Below are positions 33,963 to 64,000 of a stretch of 64,000 nucleotides of DNA, in pieces. The DNA is from Eucommia ulmoides (Eukaryota; Streptophyta; Magnoliopsida; Garryales; Eucommiaceae): the NCBI GenBank assembly GCA_016647705.1, contig CM028330.1, positions 51,448,897 through 51,512,896 of the forward strand. The letters are read 5' to 3'. Positions within the stretch are counted from its first letter, which is position 1. Each line of letters opens with the position of its first letter. The notes beneath the pieces are model-generated. The model saw nothing but the letters and a program-made list of their open reading frames with translations, was not told the DNA's origin and made no database searches. Position numbers and translations under genes: made by a program.

Positions 33963-33996
<34 letters not shown>

Positions 33997-34741: not shown

Positions 34742-35237
34742 GGATCTCCCGGTAAGTGCCCCTTTTTAGTAGGGATTGAGAGTTTCTATATTCAACAAAA
34801 TCATTTTATTAAAACGAAAATAACTATTATTGTATACAATTTTTTTACAATGTAATTATATATTTAGATTCGTCTAAAAAAGATCTTCAAAACGATATCC
34901 AACTCACTATTTTTTTTTCCATTACTTTCAGTTTTCACTTTTATATTACATGTAACATGATATTTTCTAAATTTTTAATTCCTACGAATTATAAGATGTT
35001 ACGTGTAACATCCTCCGAAATGTAACATTAATGTTACATGAATATTAAATGTAATATGGTGTAGTTACTAACCTTTTTATTTTTGTTTTGGTTTGGTTTG
35101 GATTTGGTTAATGTTACATGTAACATCCTCTGAATTATAGATGTTACATTTCCAATGTGCAATGTAACATGAATATGAAAACTGAAAACTAATAAAACAA
35201 ATAGTGAATTTGATATCGTTTTTTTTCAACCATTTTT
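34742..35237 (+). repeat. Truncated monomer (497 bp)
   Basis: The right arm is cut at GATATCGTTTT near 35220 and joins directly to TTTTCAACCATTTTT of the spacer, so about 210 bp (end of the right arm plus most of the spacer) are missing. The two sides share a T-run at the join. Confidence 0.85.
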
Positions 35238-40204: not shown

Positions 40205-40684
40205 GGATCTTCCGGTAAATGCCCCTTTTTAGTAGGGATTGAGAGTTTCCATATTTAACAAAATCATTTTATTAAAACGAAAATAACTATTATTGTATAC
40301 AATTTTTTTACAATCTAATTATATATTCAGAATCGTCTAAAAAATATCTTCAAAACGATATCCAACTCACTATTTTTTTTTTCCATTAGTTTCAGTTTTC
40401 ACATTTATATTGCATGTAACATGATATTTTCTAAATTTTTAGTTCCTACGAATTATAAGATATTACATGTAACATCCCTTGATATGTAACATTAATGTTA
40501 CATGAATATTAAATGTAACATGGTGTAGTTACTAAACTTTTTATTTTTGTTTTGGTTTGGTTTTGGTTAATGTTACATGTAACGTCCTCTGAATTATAAA
40601 TGTTACATTTCCCATTTGAAATGTACCATGAATATGAAAACCGAAAACTAATGAAAAAAATAGTGAATTTGATATCGTTTTAAA
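40205..40684 (+). repeat. Truncated monomer (~480 bp)
   Basis: Near 40681-40690 the right arm word ...TTTTAAAGATCT continues directly as CTCCCGGTAAG. The arm word AAGATCT and the anchor word GGGATCT share GATCT, so about 220 bp were lost at a five-base microhomology. This is the same part of the monomer that is lost at 35220. Confidence 0.87.
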
Positions 40685-43600: not shown

Positions 43601-46600
43601 ATAACTATTATTGTATACAATGTTTTTTACAATCTAATTATATATTCAGATTCGTCTAAAAAAGATCTTCAAAACAATATCCAACTCACTATTTTTTTTT
43701 TCATTAGTTTCAGTTTTCACATTTATATTACATGTAACTTGATATTTTCTAAATTTTTAGTTCCTACGAATTATAAGATGTTACATGCAACATCCCTTGA
43801 AATGTAACATTAATGTTACAAGAATTTTAAATTTAACATAGTGTAGTTACTAACCTTTTAATTTTTATTTTGGTTTGGTTTTTGTTAATGTGACATGTAA
43901 CATCCTCTGAATTAGAGATGTTACATTTCCCATGTGGAATGTAACATGAATATGAAAACTGAAAACTAATGAAAAAAATAGTGAATTTGATATCATTTTG
44001 AAGATCTTGTTGAGATAAATCTGAATATATAATTATATTATAAAAAAAATGTGTACAACAATAGTTATTTTCATTTTAATAAATGATTATCAATTATCTA
44101 AATTAGCTCCACAAAATAGGGATGCATTATGTACGTACAATAATTAGGGTATTTTCGTCACAAAAATGACAAAAAGACCGCTCGATTCATGAAAAAAGGA
44201 ACAGGTGTAATTGGTAATTTTCAACCATTTTTGGGATCTTCCGGTAAGTGCCACTTTTCAGTAAGGATTGAGTGTTTTCATATTCAACAAAATCATTTTA
44301 TTGAAACGAAAATAACTATTATTGTATACAATTTTTTTACAATCTAGTTATATATTCAGATTCGTCTAAACAAGAAATTCAAAACGTTATCCAAGTCACC
44401 ATTTTTTTTTCATTAGTTTTAGTTTTCACATTTGTATTGCCTGTTACATGATATTTTCTAAATTTTTAGTTCCTACGAATTGTAAGATGTTACATGTAAC
44501 ATCCTCTGAAATGTAACATTAATGTTACATGAATATTAAATGTAACATTGTGTAGTTACTAATCTTTTTATTTTTGTTTTGGTTTGATTTTGGTTAATGT
44601 TACATGTAACATCCTCTGAATTGTAGATATTACATTTCCCATGTGGAATGTAACATGAACATGAAAACTAAAAACTAATGAAAAAAATAATGAATTTGGT
44701 ATCGTTTTGAAGATCATGTTTAGATGAATCTGAATATATAATTACATTGTAAAAAAAATGTGTACAACAATAGTTGTTTTCATTTTAGTAAATGATTATC
44801 TATTACCTAAATTAGCTCCGCAACATACGGATGTATTATGTAGGTACAATAATTAGGGGTATTTTGGTCACAAAAATGGCAAAAAGACCGCTCAGTTCAT
44901 GAAAAAAGAACTGGTGTAATTTGTAATTTTCAACCATTTTTGGGATCTCCCGGTAAGTGCCCCTTTTTAGTAGGGATTGAGAGTTTCCATATTCAACAAA
45001 ATCATTTTATTAAAACAAAAATAACTATTATTGTATACAATTTTTTTACAATTTAATTATATATTCAGATTCGTTTAAAAAATATATTCAAAACGATATC
45101 TAACTCACTATTTTTTTTTCCATTAGTTTCAGTTTTCACATTTATATTACATGTAACATGATATTTCCTAAATTTTTAGTTCCTTCGAATTATAAGATGT
45201 TACATGTAACATCCTCTTAAATGTAACATTAATGTTACATGAATCTTAAATATAACATAGTGTAGTTACAAACCTTTTTATTTTTGTTTTGGTTTGGTTT
45301 GGTTTTGGTTATTTATGATACATTTAACATCCTCTGAATTATAGATGTTACATTTCCAATGTGCAATGTAACATGAATATGAAAACTGAAAACTAATAAA
45401 AAAATAGTGAATTTGATATCGTTTTGAATATCTTGTTTGGATTAATCTAAATATATAATTATATTATAAAAAAAATGTGTACAACAGTAGTTATTTTCAT
45501 TTTAATAAATGTTTATCTATTACCTAAACTAGGTCTGTAAAATAGGGATGTATTTTGTATGTACAATAATTAGGGGTATTTTCGTCACAAAAATGGCAAA
45601 AGGACCGCTCGGTTCATGAAAAAAGGAACAGGTATCATTTGAAATTTTCAACCATTTTTGGGATCTCCTGATAAGTGCCCCTTTTTAGTAGGGATTGAGA
45701 GTTTCCATATTCAACAAAATCATTTTATTAAAACGAAAATAACTATTATTGTATACAATTTTTTTACAATCTAATTATATATTCAGATTCGTCTAAAAAA
45801 GATCTTCAAAACGATATCCAACTCACTATTTTTTTTTTTCATTAGTTTCAGTTTTCACATTTATATTACATGTAACATGATATTTTCTAAATTTTTAGTT
45901 CCTACGAATTATAAGATGTTACATGTAACATCCCTTGAAATGTAACATGGTGTAGTTACTAAACTTTTTATTTTTGTTTTGATTTGGTTTTGGTTAATGT
46001 TACATGTAACATCCTCTGAATTATAGATGTTACATTTCCCAAGTGGAATGTAACATGAATATGAAAACTGAAAACTAACGAAAACAATAGTGAATTTGAT
46101 ATCGTTTTGAAAATCTTGTTTAGATGAATCTGAATATATAATTACATTGTAAAAAAATGTGTCCAACAATAGTTATTTTCATTTTAGTAAATGATTATCT
46201 ATTACCTAAATTAGCTCCGCAAAATAGGGATGTATTATGTAGATACAATAATTAGGGGTATTTTCGTCACAAAAATGGCAAAAGGACCGCTCGGTTCATG
46301 AAAAAAGGAGCAGGTGTAATTTGTAATTTTCAACCATTTTTGGGATCTCCCGGTAAGTGCCCCTTTTTAGTAGGGATTGAGAGTTTTCATATTCGGCAAA
46401 ATCATTTTATTAAACTGAAAATAACTATTATTGCATACAATTTTTTTACAATCTAATTATATATTCAGATTCGTCTAAACAAGATCTTCAAAACGATATC
46501 CAACTCACTATTTTTTTTTCATTAGTTTCAGTTTTCACATTTATATTATATATAACATGATATTTTCTAAATTTTTAGTTCCTACGAATTGTAAGATGTT

Positions 46601-49600
46601 ACATGTAATATCCTCTGAAATGTTACATTAATGTTACAAGAATATTAAATGTAACATGATATAGTTCCTAACCATTTTATTTTTGTTTTGGTTTGGTTTT
46701 GGTTAATGTGACATGTAACATTCTCGGAATTAGAGATGTTACATTTCCCACGTGGAATGTAACATGAATATGAAAACTGAAAACTAATGAAAAAAATAGT
46801 GAATTTGATATCATTTTGAAGATCTTGTTGAGATGAATCTGAATATATAATTATATTATAAAAAAAATGTGTACAACAATAGTTATTTTCATTTTAATAA
46901 ATGATTTTCTATTACCTAAATTAGCTCCACAAAATAGGGATGTATTATGTACGTACAATAATTAGGGGTATTTTCGTCACAAAAATGGCAGAAGGACCGC
47001 TCGGTTCATGAAAAAAGGAACATGTGTAATTGGTAATTTTCAACCATTTTTGGGATCTCCCGGTAAGTACCCATTTTTAGTAAGGATTGAGTATTTCCAT
47101 ATTCAACAAAATCATTTTTTTAAAACGAAAATAACTATTATCGTATACTATTTTTTTTTACAATCTAATTGTATATTCAGATTCGTCTAAACAAGATCTT
47201 CAAAACGATACCCACCTCTCTATTTTTTTTCATTAGTTTCAGTTTTCACATTTATATTACATGTAACTTGATATTTTCTAAATTTTTAGTTCCTACGAAT
47301 TATAAGATGTTACATGCAACATCCCCTGAAATGTAACATTAATGTTACATGAATTTTAAATTTAACATGGTGTAGTTACTAACCTTTTTATTTTTGTTTT
47401 GGTTTGGTTTTGGTTAATGTTACATGTAACATCCTCTTAATTATAGATGTTACATTTCCCATGTGGAATGTAATATGAATATGAAAACTGAAAACTAATG
47501 AAAAAAATAGTGAATTTGATACCGTTTTGAAGATCTTGTTTACATAAATCTGAATATATAATTATATTGTAAAAAAAAATGTGTACAACAATAGTTATTT
47601 TCATTTTAATAAATGATTATCTATTACCTAAATTTGCTCTGCAAAATAGGGATGTATTATTTAGGTACAATAATTAGGGGTATTTTCGTCACAAAAATAG
47701 CAAAAGAACCGCTCAGTTCAAGAAAAAAAGAACAGGTGCAATTGGTAATTTTCAACCATTTTTGGGATCACCCGGTAAGTGCCCCTTTTTAGTAGGGATT
47801 GAGAGTTTCCATAATCAACAAAATCATTTTATTAAAACGAAAATAACTATTATTGTATACAATTTTTTTACAATCTAGTTATATATTCAAATTCGTCTAA
47901 ACAAGATATTCAAAACGCTATACAACTCACTATTTTTTTTTCCTTAGTTTTAGTTTTCATATTTATATTGCATGTTACATGACATTTTCTAAATTTTTAG
48001 TTCCTACGAATTATAAGATGTTACATGTAACATCCTCTGAAATGTAACATTAATGTTACATGAATATTAAATGTAACATGGTGTAGTTACTAATATTTTT
48101 ATTTTTGCTTTGGTTTGGTTTTGGTTAATGTTATATGTAACATCCTCTGAATTATAGATGTTACATTTCCCATGTAGATTGTAACATGAATATGAAAACT
48201 GAAAACTAATGAAAAAAATAGTCAATTTGATATTGTTTTGAAGATTTTGTTTAGATGAATCTGAATATATAATTACATTGAAAAAAAAAATGTGTACCAC
48301 AATAGTTATTTTCATTTTAGTAAATGATTATCTATTACCTAAATTTGCTCCGCAAAATAGGGATGTATTATTTAGGAACAATAATTAGGGCTATTTTCGT
48401 CACAAAAATAGCAAAAGGACCGCTTAGTTCATGAAAAAAGAACAGGTGTAATTAGTAATTTTCAACCATTTTTGGGATCTTCCAGTAAGTGCCCCTTTTA
48501 GTTGGGATTGAGAGTTTCCATATTCAACAAAATCATTTTATTAAAACGAAAATAACTATTATTGTATAAAAAAAATTTACAATCTAATTATATATTCAGA
48601 TTCGTTCAAAAAAGATCTTCAAAACGATATCCAACTCACTATTTGTTTTTCCATTAGTTTCAGTTTTCACATTTATATTACATGTAACATGATATTTTCT
48701 AAATTTTTAGTTCCTACGAATTATAAGATGTTACATGTAACATCTTCTGAAATGTAACATTAATGTTATATGAATATTAAATGTAACATGGTGTAGTTAC
48801 AAACCTTTTTATTTTTGTTTTGGTTAATGTTACATGTAACTTCCTCTAAATTATAGATGTTACATTTCCAATGTGCAACGTAACATGAATATGAAAACTG
48901 AAAACTAATAAAAGAAATAGTGAATTTTATATCATTTTGAATATCTTGTTTGGATGAATCTGAATATATAATTATATTATAAAAAAATGTGTACAACAAT
49001 AGTTATTTTCATTTTAATAAATTTTATCTATTACCTAAATTAGGTTCGTAAAATAGGGATGTATTATGTACGTACAATAATTAGGGGTATTTTCGTCACA
49101 AAAATGGGAAAAGGACCGCTCGATTCATGAAAAAAGGAACAGGTGTAATTTGTAATTTTCAACCATTTTTGGGATCTTCCGGTAAATGCCCCTTTTTAGT
49201 AGGGATTGAGAGTTTCCATATTCAATAAAATCATTTTATTAAAACGAAAATAACTATTATTGTATACAATTTTTTTACAATCTAATTATATATTCAGATT
49301 CGTCTAAAAACGATCTTCAAAACGATATCCAACTCACTATATTTTTTTTCATTAGTTTCAGTTTTCACATTTATATTAAATATAACATGATATTTTCTAA
49401 ATTTTTAGTTCCTACGAATTATAAGATGTTTTCATGTAACATCCTCTGAAATGTTACATTAATGTTACAAGAATATTAAATGTAACATGGTGTAGTTACT
49501 AACCTTTTTATTTTTGTTTTGGTTTGGTTTTGGTTAATGTGAAATGTAACATCCTCTGAATTAGAAATGTTACATTTCTCACGTGGAATGTAACACGAAT

Positions 49601-52029
49601 ATGAAAATTGAAAACTAATGAAAACAATAGTGAATTTGATATCATTATGCAGATCTTGTTGAGATGAATCTGAATATATAATTATATTACAAAAAAAAAT
49701 GTGTACAACAATAGGTATTTTTATTTTAATAAATGATTTTCTATTACCTAAATTAGCTCCACAAAATAGGGATGTATTATGTACGTACAATAATGAGGGG
49801 TATTTTCGTCGTAAAACTGGCAGAAGGACCGCTCGATTCATGAAAAAAGGAACATGTGTAATTGGTAATTTTCAACCATTTTTGGAATCTCCTGGTAATT
49901 GCCCCTTTTTAGTAAGGATTGAGTGTTTCCATATTCAACAAAATTATTTTTTTAAAACGAAAATTACTATTATTGTATACTATTTTTTTACAATCTAGTT
50001 ATATATTCAGATTCGTCTAAACAAAATATTCAAAACGATATCCAACTCACTATTTTTTTTTTTCATTAGTTTTAGTTTTCACATTTATATTGCATGTAAC
50101 ATGATATTTTCTAAATTTTTAGTTCCTACGAATTGTAAGATGTTACATGTAACATCCCCTGAAATGTAACACTAATGTTACATGAATATTAAATGTAACA
50201 TGGTGTAGTTACTAATCTTTTTATTTTTGTTTTGGTTTGGTTTTGGTTAATGTTACATGTAACATCCTCTGAATTGTAGATATTACATTTCTCATGTGGA
50301 ATGTAACATGAATATGAAAACTGAAAACTAATGAAAAAAATAGAGAATTTGATATCGTTTTAAAGATCTTGTTTCGATGAATCTGAATATATAATTATAT
50401 CGTAAAAAAAATGTGTACAAAAATAGTTATTTTAATTTTAATAAATGATTATCTATTACCTAAATTAGCTCCGCAAAATAGGGATGTATTATGTAGGTAC
50501 AATAATGAGGGGTATTTTGGTCACAAAAATGGCAAAAGGGCCGCTCAGTTCATGAAAAAAGAACAGGTGTAATTGGTAATTTTCAACCATTTTTGGGATC
50601 TCCCGGTAAGTGCCCCTTTTTAGTAGGGACTGAGAGTTTCCATATTCAACAAAATCATTTTATTGAAACGAAAATAACTATTATTGTATACAATTTTTTT
50701 ACAATCTAATTATATATTCAGATTCGTCTAAAAAAGATCTTTAAAACGATTTCCAACTCACTATTTTTTTTTCATTAGTTTTAGTTTTCACATTTATATT
50801 ACATGTAACATGATATTTTCTAAATTTTTAGTTCCTACGAATTATAAGATGTTACATGTAATATCCTCTTAAATGTAACATTAATGTTACATGAATATTA
50901 AATGTAACATGGTATAGTTACAAACCTTTTTATTTTTGTTTTGGTTTGGTTTGGTTTTGGTTAATGTTACATGTAACATCCTCTGAATTGTAGATGTTAC
51001 ATTTCCCATGTGGAATGTAACATGAATATAAAAACTGAAAACTAATGAAAAAAAATAGTGAATTTGATATCGTTTTGAAGACCTTGTTTGGATAAATCTG
51101 AATATATAATTATATTATAAAAAAATGTGTACAACAATAGTTATTTTCATTTTTATAAATGTTTATCTATTACCTAAATTAGGTCCGTAAAATAGGGATG
51201 TTTTATGTAGGTACAATAATTAGATTATTTTCGTTACAAAAATGGCAAAAGGACCGCTCGGTTCATAAAAAAAGGAACAGGTGTAATTTGCAATTTTCAA
51301 CCATTTTTGCGATCTCCCGGTAAGTGCCCCTTTTTAGTAGGGAATGAGAGTTTCCATATTCAATAAAATCATTTTATTAAAACGAAAATAACTATTATTG
51401 TATACAATTTTTTTACAATCTAATTATATATTCAGATTCGTCTAAACATGATCTTCAAAACGATATCCAACTCACTATTTTTTTTTCATTAGTTTTAGTT
51501 TTCACATTTATATTACATGTAACTTGATATTTTTTAAATTTTTAGTTCCTACGAATTATAAGATGTTGCATGTAAAATCCCCTGAAATGTAACATTATTG
51601 TTACATAAATATTAAATGTAACATGACGTAGTTACTAACCTTTTTATTTTTGTTTTGCTTTGGTTTTGGTTAATGTTACATGTAACATCCTCTGAATTAT
51701 AGATGTTACATTTCCCATGTGGAATGTAACATGAATATGAAAACTGAAAACTAATGAAAAAAATAGTGAGTTTGATATCGTTTTGAAGTTCTTGTTTAGA
51801 TGAATCTGAATATATAATTATATTGTTAAAAACATGTGTACAACAATAGTTATTTTCATTTTAATAAATGATTATCTATTACCTAAATTAGCTCCGCAAA
51901 ATAGGGATGTATTATGTAAATACAATAATTAGGGATATTTTCGTCACAAAAATGGCAAAAGGACAGCTCTATTCATGAAAAAAGGAATAGGTGTAATTGG
52001 TAGTTTTCAACCTTTTTTGGGATCTTCCG

Positions 52030-52040
52030 GTAAGTGCCCC
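52030..52040 (-). repeat. Right edge of the satellite array; transposon-like terminus
   Basis: The last monomer ends at ...TCCGGTAAGTGCCCC, after which the text (TAATTTTTAATACTACC) no longer follows the monomer. Read on the minus strand the edge begins GGGGCACTTACCGGAAGATC. This aligns with the start of the nested element at 54098 (GGAAAAATTACC...ATCCCAAAAA...TTTACCACTTACTCC), so the array appears to stop at an old element end. Confidence 0.75.
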
Positions 52041-53051
52041 TAATTTTTAATACTACCTAATTCACCCCCACCCCCACCCCCCCTCTTAGGTAGCTCAATA
52101 GGCCAACATAATCCTTGTACTATTCACTTTTTTAACAAGATTGAATTGTAATTTGGAGTCTGTGGCTATAGGAGCGGCTCAATAGATGGGGACATGAACC
52201 ATTGGCAAAGGCATGATTACCATTTATTAAACGTTTCAAGTGTTGGCGTTTTCTTTTTTAATATCCACCCGTGACTGGGGACTTTCTGTGTTGTTAGGAA
52301 TAAAGGGTTAATTACACTTTGTACCCTTGTAATTAGACTGAATTGTAATTTACATTTAAACAAACACAACATACGTTTGAGATATTTGGGACCCTTGGAT
52401 TAGATATCTAATGGTCAATATTAAATGATTCCAAGAGACATTGTTTACCGTCGAATTGATTTTGATCCAACGATGAAGAGAAAACACCATTTTAAACTAT
52501 TCTTATAATTATATTGAATTATGTACCTAATAACTTATATTTTATAAAATATGACATTTTTACATTTTGGATTTTTTAGCTCTTAGATTGATTTTGATCC
52601 AACTATTCAAATGAAATAATAATTTAATAATACTGAAATACTATTAAATTTAATATAATTTAATAATATATGCATTTTTTATAGTACTGAAATATTAAAT
52701 TTACAGAAATAAAACTAAAGAAATAATATAAAGAGAAAATATAATTTTCAGAAATTATGGAGATTAAATTTATGAAAATTATAGAAATAACTAGTTTTAA
52801 ACCTTCATATTATGAGGGTCTAAAAAAAATATTAATATATATTTTGTATTTGAATATTATCCATAATTCACAACTGAACTTTTAATTTTATATTAATACA
52901 TTTTATGAATGTATAAAAACTAAATTTTAATATCGAGAAATAAAAATAAAATTATAACCTAGAAAATAATTAATGTCAACCTCTAAAACTATTATGTTGT
53001 GTTTGGTACGCTGGAATTTAATGGAATAGAATGATCATTACTATTCTTATA
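52041..53051. other. AT-rich non-coding flank between array and retrotransposon
   Basis: No ORF of note. It contains GGGTTAATTACACTTTG at about 52308, a word often seen at plant transposon ends, and two loosely similar words ending GAATTGTAATTT (near 52142 and 52350). From about 52480 to 52990 the sequence is extremely AT-rich. A GTGTTTGGTACGCTGG word near 53000 looks like the edge of another dispersed repeat into which the retrotransposon inserted. I cannot name any of these. Confidence 0.6.
52065..52083 (-). other. C-run; possible G-quadruplex on the minus strand
   Basis: C5-A-C5-A-C7. On the minus strand this is four or more G-tracts separated by single bases, which fits a G-quadruplex pattern. 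It lies 25 bp outside the array edge and is conspicuous in otherwise AT-rich sequence. Confidence 0.7.
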
Positions 53052-53454
53052 TGTTGGATTATAGAGCGCGTCGAGTCGACCCGTTGAGCGTCAACATGGG
53101 CCTCATGATTCATAGAGAGTCACCATGTGAATGGGTACACCTCTTAGTCTTAAGGATCACGTCTTTTCGATAGACACCCATTGGAATAAACATACCCTTT
53201 CGGTATGTACCCATTGGAACGGACACATCCTTTGATATTTTCTCTATAAATATGCATTGATACATTAAGGTCTCTATCCCATCAGATTATAGATAATTTG
53301 AGTGGCCTTGGTTAGTTAATGTGTGAATATTATCAAAAAATATTTTAGTAGTATTTTTCTTGCCGACGAGAGAAGAAACGGGGAATGGTTGTAAACGAGT
53401 CTGCCGAATCCGAAAGGTACGCTTCCGTTTTTTATATTTCCACATAAGTTTACA
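53052..53454 (+). repeat. 5' LTR (403 bp)
   Basis: Starts TGTTGGATTATAG and ends CATAAGTTTACA, followed by the PBS. It contains a TATA-like CTATAAATA at about 53243. It pairs with 61340-61742, which has identical length and the same ends. Confidence 0.95.
53243..53251 (+). promoter_or_regulatory. TATA-like box in the 5' LTR
   Basis: CTATAAATA lies about 190 bp into the LTR and recurs at the matching place in the 3' LTR and in the duplicated LTR end at 53620. Position and sequence fit the U3/R promoter of a copia LTR. Activity is unknown. Confidence 0.55.
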
Positions 53455-53468
53455 TTGGTATCAGAGCC
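53455..53468 (+). other. Primer-binding site (tRNA-iMet type)
   Basis: TTGGTATCAGAGCC follows the 5' LTR directly. TGGTATCAGAGC is the usual plant copia site complementary to the 3' end of initiator methionine tRNA. Confidence 0.93.
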
Positions 53469-53619
53469 TTATAGACTCATTTCGCCAAATCATGTTGTCC
53501 ATGGAAGAAAAATCGATTTTTCTCGTTCATGGCTGAAATATTTTATTTTTTTTAGATATGCATTGATACATATCTAAAATATTTTATTTTCTCTATAAAT
53601 AGAGAAAATATTTTATTTT

Positions 53620-53930
53620 CTCTATAAATATGCATTGACACATTAAGGTCTCTATCCCATCAGATTATAGATAATTTGAGTGGCCTTGGTTAGTTAATGT
53701 GTGAATATTATCGAAAAATATTTTAGTAGTATTTTTCTTGCCGACGAGAGAAAAAACGAGGAATGGTTGTAAACGAGTCTGCCGAATCCGAAAGGTACGC
53801 TTCCGTTTTTTATATTTCCGCATAAGTTTACATTGGTATCAGAGCCTTATAGACTCATTTCGCCAAATCATGTTGTCCATGGAAGAAAAATCGGTTTTTC
53901 TCGTTCATGGCTGAAATTTTTTTTTTTTTT
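53620..53930 (+). repeat. Tandem partial copy of LTR 3' part + PBS + leader
   Basis: Positions 53242 to about 53550 (from the TATA-like word through the LTR end, PBS and start of the leader) recur 378 bp downstream. A second LTR end falls at 53832 and the leader word CATGTTGTCCATGGAAG is repeated. A short AT-rich linker (53551-53619) with further CTCTATAAAT words separates the copies. The second copy has drifted slightly, so the duplication is old. Confidence 0.92.
53833..53846 (+). other. Duplicated primer-binding site
   Basis: A second TTGGTATCAGAGCC, identical to the first, inside the duplicated segment. Confidence 0.92.
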
Positions 53931-54097
53931 AGAATAGTTCGATATTTTTTGAAAATTTTTATACAGAAAAATTCTACGTTTCATTACGAGTTAAACAATA
54001 TAAATTTCATAAAATTTGGACATACGGTTGATTTTATATGATTTTTCGAAAGATTGAAAATGTAAAACTCGTTCACTGTTATCAGTCATTTTTTTTA

Positions 54098-54180
54098 GGA
54101 AAAATTACCTATTAATCCCAAAAAAAGAAATTATTTACCACTTACTCCCATCGATTTTTCTTTGCACCGATTAGTCCCGT
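54098..54180 (+). repeat. Left terminal inverted repeat of the nested element
   Basis: Carries the landmarks ATTACC, AATCCCAAAAA, TTTACCACTTACTCCCATCG, a T-run, then TGCACCGATTAGTC. It aligns with the reverse complement of about 55360-55440 and with the minus strand of the satellite spacer. Confidence 0.75.
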
Positions 54181-54240
54181 CAACACGTTTTTCTTGCACC
54201 AGTTAGTCCCATCAACACCTTTCCTTGCACCAATTAGTCC
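54162..54240 (+). repeat. 31-bp tandem repeat, 2.5 copies
   Basis: TTGCACC..TTAGTCCC..TCAACAC units begin at 54162, 54194 and 54225, an internal amplification of the inner end of the left terminal repeat. Confidence 0.85.
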
Positions 54241-54345
54241 TATTTTAAAAAATTGTGAGGATTGAGTTTACCGAAATGCTCTCCCATGAGTTTTACATTG
54301 AGAAAGAAGATCGTCAAATTGGTGTACCATCGCTGTCAGCCACCT

Positions 54346-54452
54346 GCCGCCGCCAGTCGCCGGCCGCCGGTCTCCGCCGCCAATCACCTCCGGTCGCCGT
54401 CGTCGTCGCCGGTCACCGCCGCCACCGCCGCCGGTCGCCGGTCGCCGCCGCC
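54346..54452. repeat. CCG/CGCC-rich low-complexity tract
   Basis: An island of CCGCCG and GTCGCCGG words, far more GC-rich than anything else in the window. The overlapping open frames (Arg/Ala/Pro/Val-rich) are low-complexity by-products and are not called genes. Confidence 0.85.
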
Positions 54453-54654
54453 ATAAATTACAGCTTTACCCTAAACTTTATCACTTTTTGTCACTTTTAT
54501 ATGTTTCAAAAAAAAAAAAATTCTTAATTTTAGGATAAAATTGTTACTAAACGTAATGTAAAATAAGAGAACAATTGATGTTATATTCAACATTTACAGG
54601 TGTTCAATATAATATCATATGTATTTTACTCTCCATACAAAAATAAGATAATAA

Positions 54655-55335
54655 TGAATGTTACATTCAACATCCACATGAGGGGTATTTTGGTTAGAAA
54701 AAAATAACATTAAAAAAAAAAAAAAAACAGTTGATGTTACATTCAACATCCACATGTGTTGAATGTTACATTCAACATCCACATGAGGGACATTTTGGTC
54801 AGAAAAAAATAACATTAAAAAAAAAAAAAACACAGTTGATGTTACATTCAACATCCACAGGTGTTGAATGTTACATTCAACATCCACATTAGGGGCATTT
54901 TAGTCAGAAAAAAATAACATTAAAAAAAAAAAAAAACACAGTTGATGTTATATTCAACATCCACAGGTGTTGAATGTTACATTCAACATCCACATGAGGG
55001 GCATTCAATATCCACATGAGGGGCATTTTTGTCAGAAAAAAATAACATTAAAAAAAAACAGTTGATGTTACATTCAACACTCACAGGTGTTAAATGTTAC
55101 ATTCAACATCCACATGAGGGGTATTTTGGTTAAAAAAAATAGTATTAAAAAAAAAAAAAAAAAACAAACAATTGATGTTACATTCAACATCCACATGAAG
55201 GGTATTTTGGTCAGAAAAAATTAGCATAAAAAAAAATAATAAAAAAATAAAATAAAACCAAAAAAATAAACCCAAAAAAAATATATATATATATTAATAA
55301 TTTTGATGTTACATTCAACATCCATGTGAAGGGTA
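54655..55335. repeat. ~104-bp minisatellite of GATGTTACATTCAACATCC dyads
   Basis: The near-palindrome GATGTTACATTCAACATCC (and GAATGTTACATTCAACATCC) recurs about eleven times, mostly as pairs within a unit of about 100 bp that also contains CACATGAGGGGCATTTTGG, TCAGAAAAAAATAACATT and an A-run. The dyad differs by two bases from the satellite's GATGTTACATGTAACATCC, and GGGGTATTTTGGTCA is shared with satellite spacers. Confidence 0.9.
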
Positions 55336-55359
55336 TTTTGGTCATAAAAAGACAAAAAG

Positions 55360-55440
55360 ACTTATTGGTGCAAAAAAAAAAGTGATGGGAGTATTTGGTA
55401 AATTTTTTTGTATTTTAGGACTAAATGGTGCATACCCTTG
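55360..55440 (-). repeat. Right terminal inverted repeat of the nested element
   Basis: The reverse complement begins CAAGGGTATGCACCATTTAG and continues TCCTAAAA, TTTACCAAATACTCCCATCA, a T-run, TGCACCAATAAGTC, then TATGACCAAAATACCC. This order matches the left terminal repeat, and on the minus strand the satellite spacer. Confidence 0.75.
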
Positions 55441-55502
55441 TTTTTTTATTACTGTTCTGATTTTGGAATAGTTTTTTTATTACTGTTCTGATTTTGGAAT
55501 AG
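55441..55502 (+). repeat. 31-bp tandem duplication
   Basis: T7 followed by ATTACTGTTCTGATTTTGG and AATAG occurs twice without a gap (55441-55471 and 55472-55502) at the exit of the nested element, within the copia leader. Confidence 0.92.
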
Positions 55503-55634
55503 TTAGGAAGAAGACGACTCAAAACGACGTGATTTCGTTTATAAAATGGCACGTCGATTCGTTCAATATATATATATACTCGCACACGTTTATGAAGACA
55601 CGTCGTGTTGGCGAAAAAGATGGCTTCACCAGAA

Positions 55635-55684
55635 GGATTTGAACCTAAAGCCCTCTCTAACAGACTAATGGCCTAACAACCACT
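55635..55684 (-). other. tRNA-like / pol III box relic in the copia leader
   Basis: On the minus strand GGTTCAAATCC (complement of 55635-55645) matches the tRNA B-box/T-arm consensus. AGTGGTTGTTAGGCC (complement of 55670-55684) resembles a tRNA A-box/D-arm. Their separation of about 25 bp is a little short and no complete cloverleaf is evident. It may be a SINE head, a tRNA relic or chance. Confidence 0.35.
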
Positions 55685-55699
55685 GTGATAACTCATTAA

Positions 55700-56122
55700 T
55701 TCGGTTCTATTGGCATTATTTATTTCTACATACTCAAGTTACAGTGCACTCTTGCCTACGATATGATGAAATTTGATTTGGTTACTTAGTGAGCATTTAT
55801 TATATGTGAACATGTTATTTAATTTTAGTATACGATATACATATATTTTCATTTAGAAAAAGCATGAAATCAAATTTTTTGAGCTACAATGAGTTAAAAT
55901 ATATTTTTCTTATTTTTTATTTTGCGCATAATGTATTTAGAATTAATATTTAAATCTATAAATGTAAGAGATGATTATGAGCATAGCGAAATTTTAGATC
56001 CAGTACTATAGAGATATATATTATTTTTAAATTCGATTATTGCGGAAAAATAATTAGTGTGTGCTAATATCTTTAATCTACATAAAATGTAGTGAAATAG
56101 TTTTAACAAATATAGTAACGGA
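55700..56122 (+). other. Rest of copia leader, non-coding
   Basis: AT-rich sequence without a convincing ORF or start codon for gag. The gag reading frame can be followed back to about 56110 but no in-frame ATG is visible there, so the true gag start has been lost or lies in decayed sequence. Confidence 0.6.
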
Positions 56123-56970
56123 TCTTACTAAAGTTGAGAAACTGGATGGAAATAACTACGATATTTGGCATTGTAAGATCTAGTATCTCCTAAATGAGCG
56201 AGAGGTTTTAGAAACACTGACACACAGCATGGAATCACCTCCCGAAGGTAATTATGCCCAACACTGGCGTGAGATGGAAACCTATCAAAATTGGGCCAAG
56301 AAAGATCGTAGTGCAAGATTCACTATGTTAAGCTATATGCACGATGATGTTAAGCTATATGCACGATGATCTAATTGGTGATTATGAAAGTTATGTCACT
56401 GCACTAGAGATGTGGAATGCCTTGAAGTTGGCATTTGCCGGTACATCAGCAATTAGGTTGCGAGTCTTGACACTTAAGTTTGAAACTTATAAGATGTCTC
56501 CCAAAACAAAGATGGTTGAGCATCTTCGAAAAATGTCGGCTATGATACGCGACCTAAAATCAGCTAGTAACAACTTATCTGATGAGCAATAGATCCTAAC
56601 TGTGCTTCACTCTTTGCCTGATTCTTGGGAGCAAATAAAGCTCACAATGACGCACAATGAAAATATCCAAAATTTTACCTAATTACAGCGTCATTTGGAA
56701 TTAAAGACAGGGAGGTTGGAGGCATAAGGTAATACTTCTATGTTTGTCGCTGAGTTTAGCCATCGCCAGACATTTGGGTCCAAGCGAAAGTGGCAAGACA
56801 AAGTACAACAAAGAGGAATAAGAGGATCTTCTTATAAAAAGAGAAAGGGCAGAAAGTATCAAAAAGGCAAGCGTGGAGGAAAGAAGGACAAGTCTAAGCT
56901 GAAGTGTTACAACTATGATAAACTTGGTCACTTCGCTCGTGAATGCACTAAGCCGAATAAGGTACAAACC
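56123..56970 (+). pseudogene. Ty1/copia gag remnant
   Basis: The conceptual reading runs LTKVEKLDGNNYDIWH, then YLLNEREVLETL, MLSYMHDDLIGDYESYV, ALEMWNALKLAF, LTLKFETYKM, typical of the UBN2-type gag of plant copia elements, and ends in a basic stretch and a zinc knuckle. It would form the nucleocapsid-like particle. Breaks: in-frame stops at 56181, 56590, 56680 and 56725, and a 22-bp tandem duplication (56325-56346 and 56347-56368) that shifts the frame. The zinc knuckle (56905-56946) reads CYNYDKLGHFAREC, so the second Cys of the usual C-X2-C-X4-H-X4-C pattern is Tyr. Non-functional. Confidence 0.9.
56325..56368 (+). repeat. 22-bp tandem duplication in gag
   Basis: The 22 bases starting ATGTTAAGCTATATGC occur twice in direct succession. 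Because 22 is not a multiple of three, the second copy breaks the gag frame. Confidence 0.97.
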
Positions 56971-57339
56971 AACTCTATCTTTCAAAATGATGCCCTTGTG
57001 TGCAGTCATGTCTTGGTTATTCATTCTTTTCCTGATTGGATTGTAGATACTGGAGCAACAAGACACGTCGCAAAAGATCAAGTAGGGTTCACTGAGTATC
57101 GTAGAATTCCAATTGGGAGTCAACGTATTTACATGGGGAATAGTACTAGCGAAGATGTGATAGGAATTGGAACCTATCAATTAAAGATGTGTTCTGGACG
57201 CACCGCGCTTCTCTATAATGTTCTTTATGCTCCTGGAGTTCAACAAAACTTGATGTATGTTGTAGCCATGGCCGAACTAGGTTTTTCTTTCAGTTTCACG
57301 ATAGACTCTGTTCAATTTAATTTAGATTCCGTGTTTTAG
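56971..57339 (+). pseudogene. Ty1/copia protease remnant
   Basis: In frame with the end of gag. DWIVDTGATRHVAKD contains the aspartic-protease motif DTGA (57046-57057), followed by YMGNSTSEDVIGIGTY and LYNVLYAPGVQQNLMYV, a typical copia protease. In a live element it cleaves the gag-pol polyprotein. The frame stops at 57337 (TAG) and then continues into the integrase without a shift, so it is one decayed gag-pol frame. The catalytic DTGA itself is intact, but no complete polyprotein can be made. Confidence 0.9.
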
Positions 57340-58400
57340 GGTAGTGGACACATAGTAGATAGATTTTATGTACTAGATATTGATGAATCTTTATATTTTG
57401 ATACATATTTAATTTCTAGTAATAATGATTCTATTACATCTACATCTGTTACATGGCATGCAACACTTGGTCATATTGGGTAAGAAAGAATAACAAGGTT
57501 AGCTCGAGAAGAACTTTTAGGTCCACTCTCTAGAGTTAACTTACCTGTTTGTGAATCTTGTTTGGCTGGTAAAGCCATAAGAAAGCCTTTTGGCAAGGCT
57601 AGAAGGGCAACATCAACCTTAGAGTTAGTCCATTCTGACATTAGCAGACCTATGAATGTTAGGGCACGACATAGTGCTAATTATTTTATCACATTCATTA
57701 ATGATTACTCACGTTTTGGTTATGTTTATCTCATTTCTCACAAATCAGAGACATTGGATTGCTTCCAAAGATTTGTTCATTTAGTTGAGAATCAAATAGG
57801 TAAAAATCTTAAGATTTTACGTACTAACCGAGGACGTAAGTATTTGTCTGAACAATTCAAGGTTATATGTGATAATAGAGGCATAATTAGACAATTGATG
57901 ATTCCCGGTACTCCACAACAAAATGGAGTAACTGAGCGTAGGAATCGAATTTTATTGGATATGGTCAGGTCAATGATGGCACATGCTAATCTACTAATTA
58001 ATTTCTGGGGAGATGCTTTATTGACAGCGACCTATATCCTTAATAGAGTGTTCTCCAAGTCAGTCCTATCTACACCATATGAGTTATGGACTGGTTTCAA
58101 ACCAGAATTAGAACACTTGCGACCATGGGGATCTACAGGTTATGTTCGTATTACGTCACATGCACATGGAAAATTGGGCCCTAGAGCTCAAAAGTGCATA
58201 TTCGTTAGATATCCTGATCACTCCAAAGGATATGTAATGTTACATGAACGTTGTGATGGCGTACTGACTGAGATTGAGTCACGCGATGTCGAATTTATGA
58301 AAAATAAATTTCCAAACAGAGGTGAACTAAGAGGTTTTAAAGAACTTTATGAGTTGAATGAGTCCAACGATAACTCTACACCATCACTCGGTGAGGGTGG
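57340..58400 (+). pseudogene. Ty1/copia integrase remnant
   Basis: The N-terminal zinc-binding part is visible as WHATLGHIG and, past a stop at 57481, VCESCLAGK. The catalytic core follows: the first Asp in LVHSDIS (codon 57637), a second acidic site that now reads LRTNRG, where Asp has become Asn (codon 57826), and the Glu in QQNGVTERRNR (codon 57934). The C-terminal part has FWGDALLTATYILNR and PYELWTGFKPELEHLRPWG. Integrase would insert the cDNA, but with D-N-E in place of D-D-E this copy should be inactive. From 57562 it shares one open frame with the RT start, up to the stop at 58723. Confidence 0.93.
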
Positions 58401-58619
58401 GAAAATTAATCCTCGTCCTTCTACAAGTACGCCAATGATCGCCGAGGATAGTGGTAGAGATTTAGAGAATAGTAGGAGTATACCACAATATAATTCTCAA
58501 ACTCTTCAACTGCATAGAAGTCAACGTGGAAATATTCATCGACGTCTATTTGGGATTACTAAGGAATTTTTCATATGTTCTTCACTAGAGGAAGATGAGC
58601 CTTCCTCTTATCAAGAGGC

Positions 58620-59560
58620 CTTATCATCACCTCCTACTAAAGAATGGATAACTGCAATGAAAGATGAGATTAGTTCTATGCAAAAGAATCAGGTATGGGA
58701 ACTAGTTGATCTTCCGCTTGGATGAAAATCTATTGGAAACAAATGGGTTTTAAAGATTAAATGTCAGGCAGATGGATCTATTGATAGGTACAAAGCTTGT
58801 CTCATGATGAAAGGTTACACTAAAAAAGAGGGTGTAGACTACGAGAAAACTTTTTCACCTGTTGTTAGGTTTGCCTCCATTCGCTTAATCCTAGCCATCG
58901 TCACCCATTTGGATCTAGAACTTTTTCAAATGGATGTTAAAACTACTTTTCTCAATAGAGAACTAGATGAAGAGATTTACATGGATCAACCTATTGGTTT
59001 TGTGGCCAAGGGACAAGAGTGCAATGTATGCAAGCTAAAACATTCCATTTATGGTCTAAAATAATCATATACAATGGTACATCAAATTTCATCAAGCTAT
59101 AATTACTTTTGGCTTTATCATGATTAAGGAAGATCATTGTGTTTATATAAAGCAGTCAGAGAAAAGTTTCATTATCCTTACTCTGTATGTAGGCAATATT
59201 TTATTGGCAGGAAATGACATAGGGATGATTGTCTCCACTAAAGAGTGGTTGTCCTTTACTTGTTATATAAAGGACATGGGTGAAGCAAATTATGTACTTG
59301 GTGTTAAAATTATTCGAGACCGTTCTAAGAAACTTCTTGCTTTGTCTCAAGAGACTTATATCAGGAAGGTACTTGAACGATTTCGAATGCATAATACTAA
59401 GCCTATAGATACTCCTGTTGAGAAAGGTAGTACCTTGAGTCTTGATTTTTATCTTAGAACTAATGTTGAAAAAGAAGATATGTCTCGTATACCATATGCA
59501 AGTGCAATTGGAAGCCTAATGTATGCCATGATGTGTACAGAACCAGACATATGTTATGCT
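58620..59560 (+). pseudogene. Ty1/copia reverse transcriptase remnant
   Basis: RT begins near WITAMKDEISSMQKNQVW. Motif A QMDVKTTFLN (Asp codon 58933) is intact, followed by EIYMDQPIGFV and KHSIYGLK. Stops lie at 58723 and 59062. Near 59065-59072 the frame shifts and resumes with QWY...IMIKEDHCVYIKQ. The catalytic box reads YVGN (59186-59197) where copia RTs have YVDD, so both Asp are lost. Downstream VLGVKIIRD, SQETYIRKVLERF and PYASAIGSLMYAM are typical of copia RT. This was the polymerase that copied the element RNA; it is inactive here. Confidence 0.94.
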
Positions 59561-60155
59561 GTGGGGTTAGTTAGTCTTTTCCAGAGCAATCCAGGAATTG
59601 TTCATTGGAGAGCAGTTAAAAGGATCCTGCGGTACCTTCGTGGAATCACAGACTATATGTTTTTCTATCGTGGTGGAAATATACATTTGCAAGGATATAG
59701 TGATGCAGAGTGGTGACTTGGACGAACGTAAGTCGACATCAGGATATGCTTTCATACTCAGCAACGGTGCTATTTCATAGTCTAGCAAAAAGCAATCTTG
59801 CATAGCACTATCCACTATGGAAGCAGAATATATTGCTTGTACTTCAGCAGTTCAAGAGACTGTTTGGTTAAAAAGATTTTTAGAAAGTCTTGAGATAGTA
59901 CCGCATTCTGTAGATCCTGTAACCATACATTGTGATAGTATGGCTGCTCTCGCATATGTCAAGGATCCAAAATATCATGGAAAGACGAAGCATATTCAGA
60001 CTCGATATCACTACATCCGAGATAGAGTCTCACATGGAGAAGTGGTACTCAAGCATATTTCTACGAGTAAAATGGTGGTTGATCCCTTAACCAAATCTAT
60101 TTCTAGAGATTTGTTCGAATCTCATGTAAGGTCTTTGGGTCTTCGTAGATTGTAA
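59561..60155 (+). pseudogene. Ty1/copia RNase H remnant and end of pol
   Basis: WRAVKRILRYLRGI and QGYSDAEW mark the start. A stop at 59714 and a frame change follow, then DLDERKSTSGYAFILSNGAIS, a TAG at 59778 where a Trp codon is expected, and MEAEYIACTSAVQETVWLKR, HCDSMAALAYVKDP and the C-terminal SLGLRRL ending at 60155. The acidic residues in SDA, EAEY and HCDS are visible. The domain would degrade the RNA strand after reverse transcription. The breaks make it non-functional. Confidence 0.92.
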
Positions 60156-61328
60156 AAGATATGTTTGATTTATTAGCTTCATATATTTGTACCGCAATGC
60201 ACATTTAGAATTTCATACTTTATTTGCATTTATTAAAAGTATGATAAACGATTTAAGATATTTGTTATAGCATATATTTTACCATGATGGTAGATGTCAC
60301 CAGGCTAAATGGTTGGATACTCATACGACAACCAGCCTCGGCGCTGAGATAGTATGCGAGATAAAACTTTAGAGTTCTGAAGATTGAGTTAGAGAATTCT
60401 TTATAATGTCTCCTTGGACTAGCCAAGATGAGGTTTATGATAAACCGAATATAAAAGTTTCTCACACTTCATGTAGCCTGAGAATAGCCGAATGTGAGAT
60501 TTCAATTGGATACTCGAGGAGATACCAACTTGAAGTTCTCAAGTCAATCACTTATATAGTGATTGGACTTAGATTCATACGGTAATTTAGATTGACATCC
60601 TCATTTTCTTTTGTGAGTATAATACCGTAGCATGTAAAATTATACTACATGTGCTTTAAGATGACCACATAGGGAGTGAGAAATGGATCCTTACTTTCTT
60701 ACTATGTGAGCCCCATATATATATATATGTATGTATGTATATATGTATATATGTATGTATGGATCACTAATAATGATCTAATTGTTCCCTTATGACTTTG
60801 AACTGTGTTATAATTCAGAAATTTGATGTTGCTACTTTAGCTTGTTATCCTATGGCCATGAATAATGCGGTCTAAAGAGACATGTCTAGGAAAGCAGTCA
60901 AATAGAAGTTGAGTAACATGAGGATCAAAGGAAGACAATTTAGTAACACATCTTGTGAAAATTGCAGTGTACGGTGCTTAATGGTGGCCATCACATATAA
61001 AGTTATTTTTCAAAAAATTATATTATATATATTATTTTATTTTATTTTTGTAAATAAGCACGCTACTGCAAAAGGAGATTAAGCATGTTCTGAGTTTTAA
61101 ATTCTAGAGGGGTTAGAAATGCTTAATTTGATGTGACTGAATTGGTCCAGGGCATAGACGAGTATTTTATTTTGCAGGGGGATGTTGCCATGTTAGTTTG
61201 ATAGAAACTTAATATGGTGCTCCCACATTATTTGAAGACACTCGTCGGTCGCACACACCACTAACCTGTTTAAAGAGGGTATAATGCATGAGTTTAAAGA
61301 GAGAAACACATTTGGTGCCCATTGTGTC
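60156..61328 (+). other. Non-coding 3' region of the copia element
   Basis: Lies between pol and the polypurine tract; no coding frame is recognised. It contains a TA/TATG microsatellite at about 60714-60760 and an AT-rich tract near 61010-61055. Confidence 0.75.
60714..60760. repeat. (TA)n/(TATG)n microsatellite
   Basis: Alternating ATATAT and GTATGTAT words in the copia 3' region; likely length-polymorphic. Confidence 0.9.
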
Positions 61329-61339
61329 CGAGTGGGAGA
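61329..61339 (+). other. Polypurine tract
   Basis: CGAGTGGGAGA directly precedes the 3' LTR. GTGGGAGA before TGTTGG is the usual plus-strand primer site of plant copia elements. Confidence 0.88.
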
Positions 61340-61742
61340 TGTTGGATTATGGATCGGGTCGGGTCGACCCGTAGAGCGTCCACATGGGCCCGATGATTCA
61401 TGGAGAGTCACCATGTGAATGGGTGCACCTCTTAATCTTAAGGATCACGTCTTTTCGATAAACACCCGTTGGAATAAACATACCCTTTCGGTATGTACCC
61501 ATTGGAACGAACACATCATTTGCAATTTTCTCTATAAATATGCTTTGATACATTAAGGTCTCTATCCCATTAGATTATAGATAATTTGAGTGGCCTTGGT
61601 TAGTTAATGTGTGAATATTATCGAAAAATATTATAGTAGTATTTTTCTTGTTGACGAAAGAAGAAACGACGAACGGTTGTAAACGAGTCTGCCGAATCCG
61701 AAAGGTACACTTCCGTTTTTTATGTTTTCGCATAAGTTTACA
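61340..61742 (+). repeat. 3' LTR (403 bp)
   Basis: Starts TGTTGGATTATGG and ends CATAAGTTTACA. It has the same length as the 5' LTR, with about 30 substitutions by hand count (about 7%), many of them transitions. That indicates an old insertion. Confidence 0.95.
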
Positions 61743-61948
61743 CTATATTTAATGACAAAAATGATTAAATGTGGTATTAGAATGACCATTCTCATTCCAA
61801 TGTCTTATCAGAGTATAGAATTAATCAAGAATGGAATGCATTTGTACAATAAAGTCTCCATTTGTAAAGTATATAATTTTTTTTTAAATAAAGAATATTT
61901 GAACATAAACCAAATAAAGTTTCAAATAAGAGGTAAATATATGTATGT

Positions 61949-61966
61949 ATACACACACACATATAT
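61949..61966. repeat. Short (AC)n/(AT)n microsatellite
   Basis: ATACACACACACATATAT just before the purine tract. Confidence 0.85.
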
Positions 61967-62027
61967 AGAAGAAAGAGAAAGAGAAAAAAAAGAAGAAGAA
62001 GAAGAAGAAGAATAAGAAGAAGAAGAT
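61967..62027 (+). repeat. Polypurine / (GAA)n microsatellite
   Basis: Unbroken purines from 61967 to 62012, then more AAG and GAT triplets and GGAGG words. The strand asymmetry would allow triplex formation. The frame over it (Lys/Glu-rich) is a by-product. Confidence 0.9.
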
Positions 62028-62158
62028 GATGATGAGCAGGAGGAGGGGGAAAAAGAAAAAGAAAAAAAATAGGTGGTGGACGAGGGGTGGGCGGTGGTAT
62101 TACCAGCGAGGGTCAGGGTGGTGGTACCAGTGGGGATTGGGGGCTTAATTAGAATATG

Positions 62159-62186
62159 TGTATGTGTGTGTGTAAGAGAGAGATAA
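62159..62186. repeat. (GT)n(GA)n microsatellite
   Basis: GTATGTGTGTGTGTAAGAGAGAGAT; simple-sequence DNA in intergenic context. Confidence 0.8.
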
Positions 62187-62287
62187 TTTGGCGTCGACTA
62201 CCGATATCGAATTCTCGTCAGAAAAGATGGTGTAGGGAGGAAGAAGTAAGGGGAGAAAGTGTAAATTATTATTAGAAACTCAAAGGA

Positions 62288-62343
62288 TAAAATAGTAATT
62301 TAATTAAATTTTCGTTGGGTAAAATAGTAATTTAATTAAATTT
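62288..62343 (+). repeat. 24-bp direct repeat, two copies
   Basis: TAAAATAGTAATTTAATTAA plus AATT words at 62288-62311 and 62320-62343, separated by CGTTGGG. A small tandem duplication with no known role. Confidence 0.9.
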
Positions 62344-62454
62344 CATTCCAATTTCAATATTTGGTTAGTATTTGGTCGACTATTTTTGATCAATGAAGGA
62401 TAAAAATCTAATCCCATGAAATTTGGATTAACTAATACCAAGTTTATCTTGGGA

Positions 62455-62890
62455 TTGGATAACTTTGTCAGCGCAAAGAGCTAACCAAGAAGGAGGTGAA
62501 TTGAGTAGTTACTAAAATTTAAACAATTAAATATAAATAATCAATTTTCCTAAATATATTATTATCTTTATATCCAACTGATATGTTTTTAATACTAAGT
62601 GCATACCCAAATACAATATAAAAAATAAATCAATGCAGCACACAACGACATATCTTGATTCGATAAGCTACTCTTACCTACTCCAGTCCCCAGAGCTCCA
62701 CGGAAATTCGCAACTCACTAAACCTCTGATTCATTTCCCAAGTAGGAACCAAACCCTTATAATTACGATTTTTTTACCGGCTCAGAATCAACATTTACAA
62801 TTATCTTTTTTCCAAACTCAAGAAGAACCTTATCTTTTTACCAATCTCAAGACTAACCTTATCTTTAATTTGTTTTTATTTGTTTATGTA
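62455..62890. other. Possible retroelement-derived sequence, unassigned
   Basis: AAGAAGGAGGTGAATTGAGT near 62488 and the later ACACAACGACATATCTTGAT text resemble stretches seen in LTRs of plant copia elements, but I cannot find a matching second LTR or boundary. The 86-codon frame at 62633-62893 has no recognisable motif and is not called as a gene. Confidence 0.3.
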
Positions 62891-64000
62891 TAAACAAGGT
62901 GTTTGGGGTGAAAAAGGAAAAAAAATGGTCCATATGCGAGCAAGTCGGTGGAAGAACGGTGTAAAAAGTGCAAAAAAAGGCCTTCCAACATCTGCAGCGG
63001 TTAAAATACAGAGAGTTGTTGAATTCTCCACCACTGCAACAGTCATCCAGTAGAAATCCACTGACTTCTCCACTACTGCAACGGTTTGATAATAGATTTC
63101 AATGATATTTCGAGATATTTTTGAGATATTTTGGATCATATTTATATCTCCTTCTCTCCCACACCTATGACCACGTTTTTTGGGAGTCTTGAGAGCTCCA
63201 AAACAATACCAAAGGGAAGAGATCATCAAATTAAAGAAGAGGGAACAAGCTCGGAGTGCAAATCACGAACGTGGAAGCGTCGGTTCTTCAGATAACGGTT
63301 TTTCCCCTTCGTTTCTCTTCTTATTTCTTAAACCTTTGATAGTTTTTATTATGTTTAGCTTTTATATTGTTGAATATATGACTATGGCCATGAGTAGCTA
63401 AACATATATTGTTTAGGGCTTGATTGACTTCATGAAAACGTTGTTTGTATAAATTAATGTTTCGTTATCGATTGTTCATGTTTATCCGATTGTGTTTATC
63501 ATTTTATTACAATCTTAATATGCTTGTTATGGTATTAGAGTTAGTTTTGAGAATACAAGGTTTGACACTCGGGAGAGGAAATCCCGAATTCGGACTAGGG
63601 TTTAAATACAACGCAACGATCTAATGACCCAAGAGGGCATTAGAAAGTGTACAATCCGTAAGGTTGGAGCGAGACTCATGTGACCAAGTGTCATATAGAC
63701 ACTCGAGGGGGACTTCGGCGTTGACGCGAAGTCGTATATTCATTCCCTTTACACTCAGGAGAGGTAGTGAGTGAGTTTTCGATACCTAGATTGTCATATA
63801 GATTTGAATGTTGTTAATGTAAACTAGATTGAATCGAACACGATTAAGTGAACGAAATTAATCCCAAAAAAATATATTCCCTTAAACGTCATAATAGTAT
63901 TTTAGTTTAATTAGTTAATTAGTTTAGTATATTATTTATAAAACAAAAATCTAAATTTGAATCGCCTAGATAAAGTTAGGTTATGACAATTGTGGTACTT
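62891..64000. other. Unassigned repeat-like or intergenic sequence to window end
   Basis: No protein is recognised on either strand. The minus-strand frame at 62876-63229 contains TVAVVEK and TVAVVEN, reflecting a roughly 50-bp imperfect DNA repeat (CTCCACCACTGCAACAG and CTCCACTACTGCAACGG near 63028 and 63067). The higher-complexity stretch 63540-63830 and the AT-rich end with AGGTTATGACAATTGTGG look like part of a large retroelement leader or LTR, but no partner is in the window. Confidence 0.35.

Follow-up and report, generated by a model that had tools for sequence, protein, structure and literature searches.

A satellite array of foldback-shaped monomers in Eucommia ulmoides that may derive from a non-autonomous DNA transposon

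The tandem array described here lies in a 64,000-nucleotide stretch of contig CM028330.1 of Eucommia ulmoides (assembly GCA_016647705.1, positions 51,448,897 to 51,512,896 of the forward strand), hereafter the window. With somewhat better than even confidence, the repeating monomer is judged to have arisen from a non-autonomous foldback-like DNA transposon, with ends and dyads distantly related to those of an element nested in a retrotransposon ~2 kb from the array. An earlier note on this DNA had proposed that the satellite was born from a non-autonomous terminal-inverted-repeat (TIR) element. A transposon origin is favored by likenesses that exceed those of shuffled sequences; derivation from a complete TIR unit found no comparable support, no convincing second terminus having been detected. 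On this reading the nested element is kin to the putative source and need not itself be that source.

Monomers were delimited by the anchor GATCTCCCGGTAAGTGCC, with up to four mismatches allowed. This yielded 73 full monomers over 650-52040 and a left partial at 1-649, giving an array of ~52 kb that, as a long head-to-tail run of like monomers, qualifies as satellite DNA over 1-52040. The consensus obtained with MAFFT is 711 bp long and replaces the 704-bp monomer of the earlier note. Identity to the consensus averages 95.2%, and the mean pairwise p-distance is 0.083 (73 monomers, gaps left out). The left part of the array is organized as a higher-order repeat that the earlier note lacked: self-megablast revealed ~2.2 copies of a 22-monomer unit in 1-33551, 99.4-99.8% identical, and each of monomers 0-45 has a near-identical partner at a lag of 22 or 44 (p-distance 0-0.007). 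Monomers 46-72 are divergent, with nearest-neighbor p-distances of 0.027-0.061. The inner part of the array was therefore likely homogenized recently, the adjoining edge being older. Given that the 73 monomers include ~2.2 copies of the 22-mer, 49 of them are non-redundant; the consensus, the profile and the permutation test described below were built on all 73. Three monomers are of odd length, at 34763-35259 (497 bp), 40226-40704 (479 bp) and 33080-34048 (969 bp), the last of which overlaps a 236-bp internal duplication at 33310-33787.

Each consensus monomer contains a pair of inverted arms, absent from the earlier note, that extend from 37 to ~245 and from ~340 to 544. At ~200 bp each, the arms together make up more than half of the monomer, which thus has the foldback-like trait of long inverted repeats around a short center. 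The local alignment of the arms scored 389, against a highest value of 38 in 200 shuffles, and their outer 150 bp are 91.9% identical in the consensus. The RNA fold of a single monomer (46364-47073) gave one long hairpin at -227 kcal/mol, compared with a shuffle mean of -127 (n = 20; z = -16.4). The terminus-like end of the monomer sits 167 bp outside one arm. Homogenization of the arms by hairpin repair was considered and rejected: within-monomer arm likeness was 0.858, and 4976 of 5000 permutations were as high or higher, so that pairing the arms within a monomer gives no closer likeness than pairing them between monomers. Comparisons of like arms between monomers (5′ arm with 5′ arm, 3′ arm with 3′ arm) averaged 0.92. 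Given this lack of closer likeness within monomers, the inverted repeat and its divergence predate the spread of the monomer.

The 120-nt leader of the minus-strand monomer was aligned with both ends of the nested element under three scoring schemes, with 5000 dinucleotide shuffles for each. Against the element 3′ end (taken as its reverse complement), 66/94 columns were identical and no shuffle scored as well in any scheme. Against the 5′ end, 61/96 columns were identical, with 112, 2 and 2 shuffles as good. The claim that the minus-strand spacer is colinear with both TIRs therefore holds for the 3′ end and is weaker for the 5′ end. The element's own termini matched each other in 83/128 columns, 24 being gapped (0/5000 shuffles as good in all three schemes), which gives 54098-55440 the terminal inverted repeats expected of a TIR DNA transposon. 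Whole monomer and whole element, compared on both strands, scored 48 (Gumbel p 0.0016). As a control, 13 stretches of real flank, each 710 bp long and taken outside 53462-54097 and approximately the last 750 bases, reached 23-39 when compared with the element. Alignment against shuffled controls, the check that the earlier note had proposed, thus places the relationship above shuffles both whole to whole (3/1500) and at the 3′ end. The likeness is confined to the ends and the dyads. Edge monomers were not found to be nearer to the element than those of the higher-order part (T3 score means of 181.5 for monomers 46-72 and 189.9 for monomers 0-45).

The right boundary of the array falls on the same terminus-like sequence. 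The final array letters, at 52040, are ...GGTAAGTGCCCC, and the minus strand of the last monomer correspondingly opens with GGGGCACTTACC. In ungapped comparisons over offsets of -4 to 4, the highest counts of identical bases for the first 24 of the leader were 15/24 with the element 5′ end, at offset 0, and 12/24 with the 3′ end, at offset 2. For the two ends of the element against each other, the highest count was 13/24, at offset 2. Array boundary and outer ends of the element therefore agree within ~2 bp, and the observation that the array stops on the terminus-like word is borne out. Three bases past the array end, within 52041-52056, stands TTTTTAATA; the word that starts a monomer is TTTTTAATA at 6 of 72 junctions and TTTTTAGTA at 51 of them. 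Its presence just past the array is possibly microhomology at the array end.

The dyads provide a further link. The array dyad GATGTTACATGTAACATCC occurs in 43 exact copies in the array and in none in the element; the element dyad GATGTTACATTCAACATCC occurs in four exact copies in the element and in none in the array. The two match at 17/19 bases, as had been stated, and the best of 1000 shuffled monomers reached 15/19. A longer word said to be shared, GGGGTATTTTGGTCA, was found as written at seven places in the array and at none in the element; its last 14 bases, GGGTATTTTGGTCA, are present in both, at seven and two places, respectively. The commoner array form of this word carries CGTCA (34 places). 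Each consensus monomer has 10 copies of the half-site ATGTTAC/GTAACAT (shuffle mean 0.24), and the element likewise has 10 (shuffle mean 0.33). Over the remaining 10.6 kb of flank, the half-site occurs twice in 55441-64000 (shuffle mean 1.60) and not at all in 52041-54097. The whole array holds 527 exact half-sites, and those of the monomer lie at consensus 190-397, on the inner arm parts and the loop, outside the leader. When all 7-mers were ranked, ATGTTAC came first in the monomer and outside the top 14 in the element, where ATGTAAC, a word of the same dyad, ranked 14th and the 8-mer ATGTTACA ranked 12th. The element has 12 dyads at three or fewer mismatches and an internal tandem repeat of ~105 bp at 54655-55195.

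A hidden Markov model of the monomers was scanned against the ~12-kb flank (52042-64000), with 60 shuffled flanks as a control, the best scores of which peak at 1.9 bits. Positive-scoring matches to the right of the array fall solely inside the nested element. The top five matches all lie there, and the first three exceed all 60 shuffled flanks: the 3′ terminus of the element (12.0 bits) and two overlapping matches in its dyad region (4.5 and 3.7 bits). The fifth, at 54971-54984 (-3.9 bits), stays below the peak of the shuffled flanks. The coordinates of these and the other features are collected in Table 1.

Table 1. Features of the window, with the evidence on which each is placed
Feature	Coordinates	Strand	Evidence and remarks
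Tandem array, head-to-tail	1-52040	+	Anchor spacing and MAFFT consensus; left side runs off window edge
Higher-order repeat, unit of 22 monomers (~15.5 kb)	1-33551	+	Nearest neighbors and self-megablast
Divergent array edge without the 22-mer repeat	33552-52040	+	Nearest-neighbor distances; terminates on terminus-like word
Example monomer, arms folding into one long hairpin	46364-47073	+	RNA fold of single monomer
Last full monomer	51331-52040	+	Terminus-like end (minus strand GGGGCACTTACC...) is the array end
Ty1/copia long terminal repeat retrotransposon enclosing nested element	53051-61742	+	Long terminal repeat pair and Pfam domains
Nested non-autonomous TIR-like element	54098-55440	.	Imperfect TIRs, dyad-bearing internal repeats; boundaries adopted from the earlier note
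Element 5′ terminus, weak profile match	54106-54180	-	Profile positions 629-703; E-value 0.27, 0.3 bits
Dyad-bearing region of the element, with matches to satellite dyads	54731-54877	.	Overlapping matches 54731-54877 (4.5 bits) and 54835-54877 (3.7 bits)
Element 3′ terminus, best profile match	55329-55405	+	Profile positions 602-678; E-value 7.3e-05, 12.0 bits

Several results weigh against derivation from such a transposon, and one group of them concerns the structure of the unit. When the element ends were compared with consensus 1-590 on both strands, 669, 7, 227 and 180 of 1000 shuffles were as good. The low value of 7 comes from the 5′ end in the orientation that a second TIR would have, at consensus 92-239, with 94/163 columns identical; on retesting, this match was equalled by 20 of 2000 shuffles under its own scheme and by 112 and 1736 of 2000 under two others. 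It is a gappy, AT-rich alignment that we do not trust as a second end, without wholly dismissing it. No clear inverted counterpart of the leader was found within the same monomer (112/1000 shuffles as good), and the outer arms are unlike the element (608/1000 and 688/1000). The flanks of the nested element have TTTTTTTA in common, which, both copies being T runs, is ambiguous as a target site duplication. Given that the searches of consensus 1-590 gave no convincing second terminus, a complete TIR element as the repeating unit is unsupported.

The dissimilar outer arms and the lack of a convincing second terminus also favor the chief rival explanation, namely that an unrelated foldback-like unit, supplying the arms, lay in or beside an ancient copy of an element bearing such ends and that the joint stretch was amplified with the transposon end as a passenger. 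Alignment of the arms breaks off at consensus 37 and 544. The sequences immediately flanking the two arms are unlike each other (913/1000 shuffles as good), a result that also counts against descent from a single transposon; the leader resembles the element, and the outer arms do not. Because the outer arms are without similarity to the element, such a composite has to be taken seriously, and we regard it as an appreciable, if minority, prospect. What speaks for a single source is the placement of the element-like half-sites on the inner arms and the loop rather than in the leader, so that both parts of the monomer point to the element.

The remaining adverse results concern the strength of the likeness. 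Only 64-70% of columns are identical over ~95 bp of end, and the whole-to-whole score was equalled by three of the 1500 shuffles (best shuffle 50). Leader and element 5′ end gave a score matched by 112 shuffles under one scheme, and the inner monomer region is weakly like the element by plain alignment (35/1000 shuffles as good). The best profile match was subject to a 15.2-bit composition correction in a similar run, and the 5′-terminus match, at 0.3 bits, falls within the shuffled range. Words such as GGGTATTTTGGTCA may recur at many plant transposon ends. Members of one family are conventionally expected to share 80% identity across 80% of their length, and the ends (66/94 and 61/96 columns) together with the dissimilar outer arms fall short of this. 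The description of satellite and element as the same family is therefore overstated, given that the 64-70% identity is restricted to the ends and dyads.

Such modest values would also be expected by convergence, in which constraint or chance gives AT-rich transposon ends and palindromes the same short words without any kinship between satellite and element. We hold this to be distinctly unlikely, since several words keep their order and spacing over ~95 bp, the 3′ end stands apart from all shuffles in three schemes, the five top flank matches fall in one 1.3-kb element with three above all shuffles, and the same half-site is enriched in monomer and element. The reverse direction, in which the element captured satellite sequence, finds some encouragement in the internal tandem dyad repeats of the element, and capture of this kind has been proposed for miDNA4 in Xenopus in an excerpted account (PMC12628747). 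It appears scarcely credible here: the strongest likeness is to the TIR of the element, which captured filler would not provide, and the profile scan gave no strong match in the element to any other part of the monomer.

If the monomer does descend from a foldback-like transposon, one transposase lineage, recognizing the shared end and dyads, would have served both element types. One end and the interior may have been doubled head to tail, through breakage at one terminus or through unequal exchange of neighboring copies, the other end being lost during that duplication. Tandem duplication of one end and the interior would have set the terminus as the unit boundary. Unequal crossing-over, followed by block duplication, would then have built the array, with the left part becoming the 22-monomer repeat. 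The dyads probably started as protein-binding sites, for a transposase or an anti-silencing protein, and array transcripts, if any, could form long hairpins that feed small-RNA silencing. That the array is a still-working decoy or docking site, in which the 527 half-sites titrate or recruit the DNA-binding protein of the element and the hairpin arms give rise to RNAs that silence the same group of elements, seems very improbable.

The nested element itself has no stop-to-stop frame longer than 94 amino acids. Among the seven frames of the window that were scanned, no Pfam match to a transposase, VANC or Helitron domain was found; the Mutator and hAT superfamilies are marked by their transposases and by target duplications of 9 and 8 bp, respectively. 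A GC-rich low-complexity stretch at 54320-54455, in which the one frame tested had no Pfam match, is perhaps captured host sequence. A perfect 31-bp tandem duplication (2.1 copies, 55440-55504) abuts the element on its right side. The enclosing copia retrotransposon has long terminal repeats at 53051-53454 and 61339-61742 that are 92.3% identical, and a primer site that we take to be tRNA-Met-like; both the copia element and this site would fit a plant genome. Of its Pfam domains, copia gag, Pol_BBD, SH3_retrovirus and RVT_2 pass the cut-off, and rve (integrase core) lies below its own. A stretch running from the long terminal repeat into the leader of this retrotransposon is doubled in tandem (53236-53556 and 53614-53933, 97.5% identical). 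A search of 52000-64000 against Rfam gave no match at the gathering threshold.

Conversion of transposons to satellites is already known, and the array is plausibly a further case. The comparisons that follow draw on excerpts of the reports cited. The foldback transposon Tetris gave rise to the TIR-220 satellite arrays of Drosophila virilis (PMC4079207). Like the proposed source here, Tetris is apparently non-autonomous and foldback-like, with long inverted repeats, internal tandem repeats and derived tandem arrays (PMC4079207). TIR-220 is a repeat inside the Tetris TIR, whereas the present monomer spans both inverted arms and one end; furthermore, the three complete Tetris copies have target duplications of 8-9 bp, in contrast to the ambiguous T-run flanks of the nested element (PMC4079207). 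The host of Tetris also belongs to a kingdom other than that of the plant array. The Chenopodium satellite CficCl-61-40 reportedly has a unit of ~40 bp. That satellite has been traced to the CACTA element Jozin (PMC7320549, PMC9659126) and so offers a plant precedent for the DNA transposon origin proposed here. It stems from a remnant of the tnp2 transposase domain, whereas the 711-bp unit described here comprises a non-coding end and interior (PMC7320549, PMC9659126). Several satellites derived from miniature inverted-repeat transposable elements are on record (PMC9659126, PMC12628747). Plant genomes also harbor truncated Helitrons in tandem (Xiong et al. 2016, as cited in PMC12628747), and their arrays, like that described here, retain many copies of one end (PMC12628747). 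Helitrons are rolling-circle elements; by contrast, the related element here has TIRs, and the seven frames scanned gave no Helitron domain.

Multiplication of motifs within non-coding transposon DNA is known from VANDAL elements (PMC5735166, in excerpt). Neither a VANC nor a transposase match links the frames scanned here to that group. Consensus monomer and element both lack the VANC21 motif YAGTATTAY and the motifs of VANC6, AGTTGTCC and AGTTGTAC, arrays of which characterize those particular families and not VANDALs at large. Searches of the literature returned reviews and precedents, none of those examined among the matches listed being recognized as the present sequence. Six sequence words of 14-18 bases were not found in the literature searched; for four words of 12-13 bases, no title among the matches listed dealt with transposons or satellites. 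The pattern GATGTTACATGTAACATCCNCTGAA had no match in viral contigs.

Four features thus come together in the window: a monomer of foldback shape, a related mobile element close by, an array edge that is divergent and ends on a terminus-like word, and a recent 22-monomer repeat. If the link between satellite and transposon is true, this would be a place to test how a transposon end comes to delimit a satellite unit and whether putative binding sites common to both survive in an array.

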